From contig JACRCL010000001.1 of assembly GCA_016219015.1 (NCBI GenBank), positions 134,308-198,307 of the forward strand: DNA of 64,000 nt. Direction: 5' to 3'. Positions 1-59,441 of this stretch are shown here, piece after piece. The stretch is from Deltaproteobacteria bacterium (GTDB lineage Bacteria; Desulfobacterota; GWC2-55-46). The notes beneath the pieces are model-generated. The model saw only the letters and a list, made by a program, of their open reading frames with translations, ran no database searches and was not told the DNA's origin. Position 1 is the first letter of the stretch; each line of letters starts with the position of its first letter. The position numbers were made by a program, and so were the translations under genes.

Positions 1-2435
1 CTCAAGCTCAGATGGCACGACGAGCAGCCGGAGCTTAAGTTCAAATGGCTGAAGCTCCACGACGTGAACGTCGTCGTGTGGCACTGCTTGCAGTCCGTCG
101 AGTACCCGTTTGCCACGTGGCCCGAGGCGGACATATAGTTGCTCGCGTGGCAGTTGTAGCAGAATACCGGGGTGTTCCTGTAGAGCCTGTTGGCGTGGCA
201 GGCCTGGCACTCGGCCGAACGGTGGTTGCCGATGAGCGGGAAGCTCGTTGAGCTGTGCCTGAAGTCGACCGGGTTCCATGACCTCTGGCCGTGGCACTTC
301 TCGCACTCAACGACCCCGAACTGGTTCAGGTGCGGGTCGACGTGGCACTGGTTGCAGTAGCGGTTGACCTTCTTGTACTCCTTTGTCACGTGGCAGCTCG
401 AGCAGATGACGTCGTTATGGACGCCCCGGAGCTCGAAGCCCGCCTTTTTCTTGTGGTCGAACTTCCTCGGCTGCCAGTCGGACTGCGTGTGGCAGGACGA
501 GCACTCCTCCTTGAACTCTCCCTTGTGGACGTCCTTGTGGCAGTCGATGCACTTCTCGGCCTTTGTTTTGTACTTTTTCTCCTTATGGCACTTGTCGCAC
601 GGGGTGTCCCTGTGCTTGCCGACCAGAGGGAACTTGGTCTGGAGGTTGTGGTCCATGGTGGACTTTTTCCAGGTCTCCTCGTTATGGCACTTCTTGCAGA
701 CCTTCCCGAGCTCGTCCTTGTGCGCGTCGTCCTTCTCGTGGCAGTTCTGGCAGACGGTCTGTATGGGCTTGTACTTGCCGTCAACGTGGCACTTCTCGCA
801 GGGCGTCTTTACGTGCTTGCCTTCAAGCCTGTACCCGGCGTAAGAGGTCGCGTTATGCTCGAAGAGCGTCGTCTTCCACTCCTTCGTTGTGTGGCACGCC
901 TCGCACAGCTTATCCGAGAACTGCTTCTTGTGCGGGTCCTTGTGGCAGTCCTCGCACTTCTTGAAGTCAAGGGGCCTGTACTTGCCGTCGGCGTGGCACT
1001 TCTCGCAGTTGACCTTCAGGTGCTTGCCGTCGAGCCTGTACCGCGCGTTCTGAGGGGAGTTATGGTCGAACGACGTCGACTTCCAGTCCTTCACTACGTC
1101 GTGGCAGGAATCGCAGGCCTTGTTCTGGAACTGCTTTTTGTGCGGGTCCTTGTGGCAGTCGTCGCATTTTTTCGATTCTATGGGCTTGAACTTGCCCTGG
1201 ACGTGGCACTTCTCGCAGTTCACCTTCTGGTGCTTGCCTTCGAGCTTGTAGCCCTTATAGTCGGCTGAGTTATGGTCGAACCCGGTCGACTTCCAGTCCT
1301 TCTTGACGTCGTGGCAGGCATCACAGGCCTTATTGGGGAACTGCTTCTTGTGCGGGTCCTTGTGGCAGTCCTCGCACTTCTTCGATTCTATGGGCTTGAA
1401 CTTGCCCTGGACGTGGCACTTTTCGCAGTTTACCTTCTGGTGCTTTCCTTCGAGCCTGTAGCCCTTGTACTCGGCTGAGTTGTGGTCGAAGCCGGTCGTC
1501 TTCCATTCCTTCATGACGTCGTGGCAGGAGTCGCAGGCCCTGTTGGGGAACTGCTTCCTGTGCGGGTCCTTGTGGCAGTCGTCGCACTTCTTGTAATCAA
1601 GGGGCTTGTATTTGCCCTTGACGTGGCACTTGGCGCAATCGACCTTCAGGTGCTTGCCTTCGAGCCTGTAGCCGATGTATGCGGACGAGCTATGGTCGAA
1701 GTCCGTGGTCTTCCAGCTCCTTGTCGCATGGCAGGAGTCGCAGGCCTTGTCCGTGAACTGCTTCCTGTGCGGGTCCTTGTGGCAGTTGTCGCACTTCTTG
1801 TTCTCTATCGGCTTATATGTGCCTTTTTCGTGGCACCTGGCGCATTTAACGTCTATGTGCTTGCCCGTAAGGAGGTACTTCGAGAAGGTATTGTGGTTGA
1901 ACTTGGCGACGTCCTTCCAGCCCTTGAAGTTATGGCAGCGCGCGCAGTCCTGGTCGAGCTGCTTTTTGTGCTCGTCGTCATGGCAGGAGTTGCACTCCTG
2001 CTTGAGGCCCGTGTAGACGCCCTGCTTCTTGTGGCACTTGTCGCACTTCGTCTCGGCGTGCTTGTCCCTGAGGCGGTAGTCCGTCCGGTCGTGGTCGAAC
2101 CTGTCCTTCTCCACCGAAATCATCTTGTACGACCTGCCCTTGTGGTCGCCGTGGCATTTTATGCAGGTCTCGGTGAACTTGGCGTGCAGCCCCTCCTTGT
2201 TCTGGATCCTTTTGGCGAGCTTGTCGTGGCAGTCGAGGCAGGTGGAGTCGGGCACGCCCTTGCCGAGCCTGTGGCATTTGACGCAGTTCAATATGCCTTC
2301 GTACTTGGAGTGCGCGCTTGCCAGGTCCCCCGGGCTTATGAGGGTGCCTATGCTGTCCTCCGCGGCCGCCGGAACAGAGACGGATACGGAGATGAATGTC
2401 AAGAACGAGAACAGGATTAAGACGATGCGTCCCAT
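1..2435 (-). CDS. Giant multihaem c-type cytochrome, at least 34 haems, C-terminus beyond left edge
   Basis: The frame is open without a stop from the ATG at 2435 to the left edge (811 codons visible). After a signal peptide (residues 1 to about 26, ending in an AAA region) it carries 34 CxxCH haem-binding motifs. Most of the protein is built from a three-haem unit of 65-70 residues. Each central unit also has exactly three further histidines, in DPH, FDH and GKH contexts, enough to give every haem a second axial ligand. GGGAG lies just upstream of the ATG. The gene starts 22 bp after the cytochrome b gene and is surely co-transcribed with it. The likely role is periplasmic or extracellular electron conduction. 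Family assignment beyond multihaem cytochrome c is not possible by eye, and the true haem count is unknown because the 3' end is missing. Confidence 0.95.
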   Translation of the reverse strand, partial: MGRIVLILFSFLTFISVSVSVPAAAEDSIGTLISPGDLASAHSKYEGILNCVKCHRLGKGVPDSTCLDCHDKLAKRIQNKEGLHAKFTETCIKCHGDHKGRSYKMISVEKDRFDHDRTDYRLRDKHAETKCDKCHKKQGVYTGLKQECNSCHDDEHKKQLDQDCARCHNFKGWKDVAKFNHNTFSKYLLTGKHIDVKCARCHEKGTYKPIENKKCDNCHKDPHRKQFTDKACDSCHATRSWKTTDFDHSSSAYIGYRLEGKHLKVDCAKCHVKGKYKPLDYKKCDDCHKDPHRKQFPNRACDSCHDVMKEWKTTGFDHNSAEYKGYRLEGKHQKVNCEKCHVQGKFKPIESKKCEDCHKDPHKKQFPNKACDACHDVKKDWKSTGFDHNSADYKGYKLEGKHQKVNCEKCHVQGKFKPIESKKCDDCHKDPHKKQFQNKACDSCHDVVKDWKSTSFDHNSPQNARYRLDGKHLKVNCEKCHADGKYRPLDFKKCEDCHKDPHKKQFSDKLCEACHTTKEWKTTLFEHNATSYAGYRLEGKHVKTPCEKCHVDGKYKPIQTVCQNCHEKDDAHKDELGKVCKKCHNEETWKKSTMDHNLQTKFPLVGKHRDTPCDKCHKEKKYKTKAEKCIDCHKDVHKGEFKEECSSCHTQSDWQPRKFDHKKKAGFELRGVHNDVICSSCHVTKEYKKVNRYCNQCHVDPHLNQFGVVECEKCHGQRSWNPVDFRHSSTSFPLIGNHRSAECQACHANRLYRNTPVFCYNCHASNYMSASGHVANGYSTDCKQCHTTTFTSWSFSHLNLSSGCSSCHLSL
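993..1829 (-). repeat. Four tandem 210-bp units inside the cytochrome gene
   Basis: The antisense of the CEKCH/CAKCH codons recurs at 993, 1203, 1413, 1623 and 1830, a period of 210, 210, 210 and 207 bp (70 or 69 codons, three haems). Long stretches are nearly identical at the DNA level between the units starting at 1203 and 1413. More diverged units of 195-207 bp continue on both sides (390, 585, 786 and 1830, 2031). The length is always a multiple of three, so the frame is kept. Confidence 0.9.
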
Positions 2436-2457: not shown

Positions 2458-3423
2458 CTAAACCGCCGGCCTGAAGACGTAGTAGACTATTATGTGAAGG
2501 AACATTATGAGGAACATCACTATCGCGAGCGGGACGTGCAGGACGTGCCAGTAGTGGAGGAGACGGTGGGAGGTGGTAAGGAAGTTCTTGCGCCTTATAA
2601 GCGCGGCCTTTCTCCTTAAAAGAGTTACTATCTCTCTCCTTGCGTCCCTGCTCAACCCGTAACGGCGCTTTAGCGCGCCTCCAAGCCTGTATATCCTGAA
2701 GCGGTTTTTTATATCGTTTCTCATCATGAAAAACAACGCCTTTACCGGGCTCAAATGTCCCGCCTCCGCGTCGGCAGTGCTTATGGCCCCGAGGAGGTGG
2801 GAGAAGTTGGCCTTGCTGAAGTACCTGTGCAGCTCGATGTTAAGGTCTTCGACGAGGGAATCCATCTCCCTCACCCCGAGCTCAGCGCCGGTAATGGACC
2901 TCGGTATCTGGACATATATGTACCTTCCGAGTATCCCGAATACCATCGTCACAATCATGCACCAGAAGCTCGTCGCTATTATCCCGTGGAGCTTGAACGT
3001 GGTGTGAAAGGTCACGAGCACCGGCCCGAGTATGCCTAAGAACATGTGGGCGGAAAGCCAGTGGCGCATTGAGCCGAGCCTGGACATGAAATCGAACCTC
3101 TTCCGGACGCTGTAGAGCATCATGACGGCCATCATCGCCGACCCCGTCCAGCCTATGAGGTGCCAGACGCCCTTGCTCGGCTCGAAGACGACCGGGTACC
3201 CCTTCAGGTAACCCGCGAGGTGGAGGGCCTTTACGATGCTCAGGCCCGGCGCATAGGCCTGAGCCATGCTCTCATAGACGCCGATGGCGATTGAGGCCAG
3301 TACGGTTAAAAGGGCCCATTCGAAGGCCGAGCCCCTTCCCTCTTTTTTCCCGGCGACGACGGGGACGGAGCTGTCCGCCGTGGCCTCAGCGCAGCTTATT
3401 TTTTCCATCTCGTTTGCGCTCAT
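2458..3423 (-). CDS. Membrane cytochrome b (b561/ferric-reductase-like), partner of the multihaem cytochrome
   Basis: A 321-residue membrane protein with about five hydrophobic segments (roughly residues 34-52, 85-105, 120-140, 150-170 and 295-318). Histidines suited to b-haem ligation sit in the membrane segments: VWHLIGW near 88, HWLSAH near 121-126, TFHTTFKLH near 139-145, and a histidine-rich last segment with HYWHVLH and FLHIIVYY. A basic, soluble stretch of about 100 residues separates segments four and five. Together with the downstream cytochrome c it resembles the quinol-oxidising membrane half of a cytochrome b/c conduit, passing electrons from the quinone pool to the periplasm. The role is inferred from context. 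The ATG at 3423 has no clear ribosome binding site. Confidence 0.75.
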   Translation of the reverse strand: MSANEMEKISCAEATADSSVPVVAGKKEGRGSAFEWALLTVLASIAIGVYESMAQAYAPGLSIVKALHLAGYLKGYPVVFEPSKGVWHLIGWTGSAMMAVMMLYSVRKRFDFMSRLGSMRHWLSAHMFLGILGPVLVTFHTTFKLHGIIATSFWCMIVTMVFGILGRYIYVQIPRSITGAELGVREMDSLVEDLNIELHRYFSKANFSHLLGAISTADAEAGHLSPVKALFFMMRNDIKNRFRIYRLGGALKRRYGLSRDARREIVTLLRRKAALIRRKNFLTTSHRLLHYWHVLHVPLAIVMFLIMFLHIIVYYVFRPAV

Positions 3424-58771: not shown

Positions 58772-59364
<593 letters not shown>

Positions 59365-59377
59365 AAAATTTGATTTG

Positions 59378-59383
59378 ATTATA
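59378..59383 (-). promoter_or_regulatory. -10 box of the pyr operon
   Basis: TATAAT on the minus strand (59383-59378), giving a start near 59371 and a leader of about 60 bases that is almost entirely the hairpin. No good -35 hexamer was found. Confidence 0.5.
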
Positions 59384-59441
59384 TTCAACTTTTCTCTCCC
59401 TTTTTAATCTCGCAGGATTAATTTAAAGGGCGCATGTTTTT

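Follow-up and report, generated by a model that had tools for sequence, protein, structure and literature searches.

A 44-haem cytochrome c as the probable wire of a one-cytochrome porin-cytochrome conduit in a groundwater bacterium

Introduction

A review has remarked that the reason for a cell to build so many haems into a single protein is unclear (PMC7096707). The same question is raised by a gene at the left edge of a 64,000-nucleotide stretch of DNA from a groundwater bacterium. This whole stretch, called the window hereafter, is part of contig C12 (G000:C12) of a genome of 2.24 Mb, and a preliminary description of it had noted a long open frame crowded with haem-binding motifs. What does such a protein do in the cell, and does its length have a meaning? 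This paper discusses the complete gene, its neighbours and its relatives, focusing primarily on a possible role in extracellular electron transfer.

The giant cytochrome gene

The gene for the giant multihaem cytochrome c occupies positions 1..2435 of the window on the minus strand and extends beyond the edge to -681, residues 1-811 of 1038 being encoded within the window. The count first given, 34 CxxCH motifs in 811 residues in a frame still open at the edge, is correct (minus-strand frame 2435..3), and leftward extension of the contig, which had been proposed for finding the C-terminus, located the stop codon at contig base 133626 (C12:133626; window coordinate -681), 682 bases beyond the left edge. 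The full-length cytochrome is therefore 1038 residues long, with 44 CxxCH motifs. All of its 88 cysteines lie within these motifs and there are 45 non-motif histidines for the 44 haems; residue shuffling of the full protein (1000 times) gave a mean of 0.6 CxxCH motifs and a maximum of 4. It is also the sole open reading frame (ORF) in the window with at least two CxxCH motifs. The haem number by itself is unremarkable and sets no record, 85-86 haems having been reported already.

Repetitive genes are open to the suspicion of frameshift or assembly collapse, and neither is indicated here by the internal nucleotide repeats or by the layout of an independent relative. The longest exact internal repeat is 40-49 bases, with none of at least 50 bases, and the repeat units differ at 13-49% of bases, which is enough difference to argue against collapse. 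In addition, an independent genome (L058) encodes a protein with the identical 44-haem layout.

Elsewhere in the window, a PyrR binding site (Rfam RF00515) was found at 59324-59433 on the minus strand (58.4 bits against a cut-off of 54). It immediately precedes a run of minus-strand ORFs from 59311 down to 56518, whose lengths of 179, 313 and 434 aa would suit a pyrimidine operon headed by pyrR. PyrR binding-site RNAs are known mainly from Gram-positive bacteria.

Organization of the cytochrome

The protein begins with a signal peptide (residues 1-25, window 2361..2435, minus strand, as are all parts of this gene), which was recognized by eye and is without a lipobox cysteine, every cysteine being in a CxxCH motif. 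It is followed by an N-terminal three-haem cap (residues 26-112, 2100..2360) with the motif SPGxLxxxHxxxEG and haem spacings of 15, 25 and 40, by an inner ladder of charged c7-like three-haem units (residues 113-770, 126..2099) and by a Ser/Thr-rich outer ladder (residues 771-1038), the start of which lies at 1..125 and the remainder left of the window. The cap and the inner ladder together carry 32 haems and the outer ladder 12. The preliminary description took nearly the whole protein for a ladder of 65-70-residue units with three haems each. This holds for nine full units from about residue 113 to about residue 760, and fails for the first three haems with their 15/25/40 spacing and for the final quarter of the protein, encoded largely outside the window, where haems are spaced 21-24 residues apart (about 22). 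The change occurs at about residue 770, that is, already inside the window. Composition shifts sharply at the same boundary: charged residues (K, R, D, E) make up 34% of residues 31-770 and Ser/Thr/Ala/Gly 19%, against 9% and 44%, respectively, of residues 771-1038.

By curated profiles, the cytochrome is of the c7/class III type, the Pfam matches to PF14522 and PF14537 (Cytochrome_C7 and Cytochrom_c3_2) being 135.3 and 118.6 bits against cut-offs of 24.8 and 25. From homology to c7-type proteins, its haems would be arranged in a chain. An AlphaFold2 model of a 1025-aa relative in L098, made from 10 sequences, was unusable (mean pLDDT 35.5, pTM 0.18). The sole match of the full protein to solved structures by phmmer, a low-complexity hit on a designed protein, was discarded.

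Neighbouring genes

The cytochrome gene is flanked on the same strand by two genes in tight order, and this trio of cytochrome b, giant cytochrome and barrel protein recurs in relatives. The first gene (2458..3423, minus strand) lies upstream at a distance of 22 bases and encodes an inner-membrane cytochrome b-like protein of 321 aa, the conserved partner, with two WxxxHx13H motifs (W122/H126/H140 and W292/H296/H310). The third, 45 bases downstream of the cytochrome gene and outside the window (window coordinates -1962..-727), encodes a secreted protein of 411 aa with a C-terminal Phe and without any Pfam match. Its relative in L098, folded from a 13-relative alignment, gave a model with 22 strands (mean pLDDT 85.2), which aligns with TonB-dependent receptors (Fiu, BtuB and FhuA; Z 17-20) over their barrel, past the plug domain, and also with Occ porins. 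The solved-structure matches listed for this model are mainly TonB-dependent receptors and Occ-type porins, MtrB not being among the matches listed, and a viral structure library gave generic phage-encoded porins only. The 411-aa protein is thus predicted to be an outer-membrane barrel, its homolog being modelled as a plugless 22-strand barrel; because the model has no plug, the empty pore would be wide.

Relatives of the trio

Searches of relatives and of GTDB genomes found the trio in many metagenome genomes of groundwater "Deltaproteobacteria" belonging to the same family and order, and also in a Desulfuromonadales-labelled genome from Hainich (L100). When ladder haems are counted as CX2CH to CX4CH motifs, with the cap counted in the inner ladder, the two ladders behave differently. 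Among the 16 cytochromes with a complete inner ladder, 12 have 29 haems, two have 32 (the window cytochrome and L058) and the remaining two have 23 (L099) and 20 (L078), the differences always being whole three-haem units. The outer ladder of the 11 complete proteins carries 10, 12, 12, 14, 16, 18, 22, 28, 34, 36 and 38 haems, a nearly fourfold span, and complete relatives range from 39 to 67 haems in all. In plain CxxCH counts, the coefficient of variation is 0.06 for the inner and 0.49 for the outer ladder. Since these sequences are mutually related, the near-fixed inner and variable outer ladder are to be read as a pattern, not as an independent test.

Several loci depart from this arrangement. 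The window genome has a second cytochrome b with a giant cytochrome (G000:C14:86036-89852, L077; 39 haems, with a 29-haem inner ladder), where the contig end cuts the locus. In L083 and L084 (G028:C13 and G018:C19), cytochrome b is followed by a 21-haem cytochrome with no barrel gene alongside, and the full trio is found elsewhere in those genomes. Nitrospinae/Nitrospinota loci (L091, L095 and L096) have an orphan cytochrome b, about 55-60% identical to that of the window, without a nearby multihaem gene. In L063 (2394-5112; G010:C95), the giant cytochrome is in two overlapping frames of 12 and 26 haems, owing to an assembly frameshift or a broken gene.

Relationship to PCC3 and two-cytochrome clusters

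The inner-membrane proteins of the porin-cytochrome clusters PCC3 and PCC4 are di-haem cytochrome b-like proteins with two WX3HX13H motifs (PMC5566968). In PCC3, the periplasmic cytochrome has a median of 21 haems and the extracellular one a median of 34, up to 85 (PMC5566968; PMC10734462). Distant relatives of the window cytochrome b sit in clusters with two cytochromes in Bacteroidota, Ignavibacteria, Zixibacteria, Gammaproteobacteria and one lineage of the same order; one of the two cytochromes has mostly 18-21 haems and the other 9-46, and a larger barrel-like protein is present as well. These clusters, which served for the comparison with the window locus, are called PCC3-like here on the basis of layout and motifs.

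With haem motifs masked, the inner-ladder profile scored 110-199 bits against the approximately 20-haem cytochromes of the two-cytochrome clusters and at most 0 against shuffled versions. Furthermore, the protein starts align residue by residue (SPGxLxxxHxxxEG..C..CH). These comparisons show homology between the inner ladder and the predicted periplasmic cytochrome of about 20 haems, a separate protein in PCC3-like clusters. Some extracellular cytochromes contain three-haem units too and reach up to 192 masked bits against the same profile, so that the cap at the N-terminus provides the more specific connection. A corresponding homology of the outer ladder to the extracellular cytochromes was also considered and not retained: the scores exceeded shuffled controls with the motifs in place and the signal was lost on masking, which limits the claim to similar composition and spacing.

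In the tree of cytochrome b, a single branch separates the two-cytochrome clusters from the one-cytochrome clusters (94/94, and 98% of bootstrap trees), the one-cytochrome side including a few members without barrel or cytochrome. Fusion and fission are indistinguishable in this tree because it is unrooted and has some long branches.

In many relatives (L070 7999-9396, L118 8776-10116 and others), the one-cytochrome trio is accompanied by a convergent gene for an Fe-S/FAD oxidoreductase (Pyr_redox/4Fe-4S by Pfam), and in two-cytochrome clusters this gene lies within the operon. This suggests that the enzyme is a cytoplasmic partner of cytochrome b. The window genome has no close copy of the trio-associated enzyme.

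A single-chain conduit and its alternatives

The gene probably encodes the wire of a porin-cytochrome conduit with one cytochrome. In such a system, the di-haem cytochrome b, the N-terminal cap, the periplasmic ladder, the barrel and the outer ladder would act in series, and the haem-loaded wire would link the inner membrane with the cell exterior. The charged inner ladder, of 32 haems here, would span the periplasm; the Ser/Thr-rich outer ladder, of 12 haems here, would thread the neighbouring plugless barrel and may project outside, and one polypeptide would do the job of the two separate PCC3 cytochromes. Assembly of the barrel around the haem-loaded chain is one possibility for the passage. 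Counted in favour of a conduit are both WxxxHx13H motifs of PCC3/PCC4 in cytochrome b, the conserved trio, the sharp compositional change between the two ladders and the 22-strand barrel model. In addition, the outer ladder weakly matches MtrA (6r2q_A; 22.8 bits, E 5e-4), which forms the haem wire within MtrB. The "long electron wire" of the preliminary description gains support from the gene context (cytochrome b and barrel) and from the homology of the first 770 or so residues to the approximately 20-haem cytochrome, conduction itself being inferred.

If a compartment boundary lay near residue 770, the inner ladder would be expected to stay near-fixed and the outer one to vary. GSU1996 of Geobacter has 12 haems in four three-haem domains and is 12 nm long (cited in PMC10138318). 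At this rise, an inner ladder of 29 haems would reach about 29 nm. The range of periplasm widths would accommodate this length. A fuller version of the proposal, in which a single polypeptide docked to cytochrome b spans the whole Gram-negative envelope, its outer ladder leaves through the plugless 22-strand barrel and its extracellular length evolves by gain and loss of repeats (10 to 38 haems), is put forward tentatively, at slightly below an even chance. Counted against a conduit are the following: the inner ladder is not absolutely fixed, with 20 (L078) and 23 (L099) haems; cytochrome b and a 21-haem cytochrome occur without an adjacent barrel gene in L083 and L084; and the resemblance between the outer ladder and extracellular cytochromes disappears once the motifs are masked. 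Moreover, the inner ladder may keep its length because its units have diverged too far to recombine, and not because of envelope width.

The number of outer haems bears directly on a first alternative, in which the inner ladder spans the periplasm, the chain stops within the barrel with its outer ladder doing no more than line the pore, and a cytochrome encoded elsewhere contacts the extracellular partner. The 12 outer haems are near the 10 of MtrA inside MtrB, the weak match to MtrA points the same way and the window genome has several other multihaem clusters that could supply the contact; however, the outer ladders of 28-38 haems in relatives far exceed what a membrane needs, and no second cytochrome gene adjoins the trio in the one-cytochrome loci examined, so this arrangement is judged unlikely. 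The c7-like repeat type, which the cytochrome shares with GSU1996 and the 27-haem GSU2210 of Geobacter, both periplasmic and proposed to be capacitors (PMC10138318), brings in a second, in which the protein is a wholly periplasmic electron store and the barrel has another job. It sits poorly with the conservation of the trio including the barrel gene, with a second ladder that differs in composition and varies in length and with a cytochrome b of the PCC3/PCC4 type, and it is quite improbable. That the protein is a free extracellular filament subunit of the OmcS, OmcZ and OmcE kind, as also suggested at first and in keeping with its many haems, regular ladder and secretion, is very improbable indeed, for the filament subunits named in the cited papers have 6 (OmcS) and 8 (OmcZ) haems (PMC10734462; PMC10138318), no OmcS, OmcZ or OmcE chain was among the PDB sequence matches of the cytochrome or its profile, the homologues of the inner ladder are cytochromes predicted to be periplasmic, and cytochrome b and barrel are co-encoded as in conduits.

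If the single-chain conduit is correct, the family suggests an answer to the question of why one protein has so many haems: the length of the inner ladder may follow the periplasm and the outer ladder is free to grow. Two cytochromes would be replaced by one chain, the haem count would be a readable ruler, and the complete relatives with 39 to 67 haems would be natural length variants of a trans-envelope wire for relating conduction to length. The gene content of the window genome did not decide which way the electrons would flow: it includes one haem-copper oxidase-like protein, no RuBisCO and no DsrA match above the cut-off.

Comparison with known systems

Like MtrCAB and MtoAB, the window locus would combine a haem wire with a barrel across the outer membrane. 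In contrast to it, MtrA has 10 haems, MtrB has 26 strands and MtrC is separate; the MtrB/PioB barrel family PF11854 has no match in the window genome, and TIGR03508 (DmsE/MtrA family) gave a below-threshold hit at residues 825-998 (38.6 bits, cut-off 192.2). OetABI and the Geobacter porin-cytochrome conduits (PMC10553843) likewise have a barrel and multihaem cytochromes in one cluster, a likeness drawn from published descriptions, and OetABI differs in having a separate periplasmic cytochrome, OetA, and an extracellular lipoprotein cytochrome, OetB. The multidomain cytochromes c7 of the GSU1996 type (3OV0) share tandem c7-like three-haem units in one chain, and 3OV0 is weakly matched by the cytochrome profile (19.8 bits, E 0.0016). 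GSU1996, however, is a periplasmic store of 12 haems, for which the source consulted describes neither a linked cytochrome b or barrel nor a second ladder.

The closest parallel is PCC3, a putative porin-cytochrome complex (He et al. 2017, PMC5566968; Hoover et al. 2023, PMC10734462). Its cytochrome b-like inner-membrane protein of about 300 aa with two WX3HX13H motifs is matched here by the 321-aa protein, a barrel is present in both clusters and the ladders have very many haems. The periplasmic cytochrome of about 21 haems has its counterpart in the N-terminal part of a longer protein, the homologous 32-haem inner ladder. PCC3 has two cytochromes, whereas the window locus has one, and no further multihaem gene adjoins the trio. 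The SGXXG motif in helix 4 of the PCC3 inner-membrane protein is absent from the window clade (FGILG here) and present at the corresponding position in the two-cytochrome clusters and L112, and the barrel protein is of 411 aa here against 540-690 aa in the two-cytochrome clusters examined. Because both the separate extracellular cytochrome and SGXXG are absent, the window system is not to be filed as PCC3. The papers searched, a partial coverage of the literature, contained no description of a one-cytochrome version. The window system probably works like PCC3, and it is best read as a one-cytochrome variant of a PCC3-type extracellular conduit, in which the periplasmic and the outer wires would lie in one chain.
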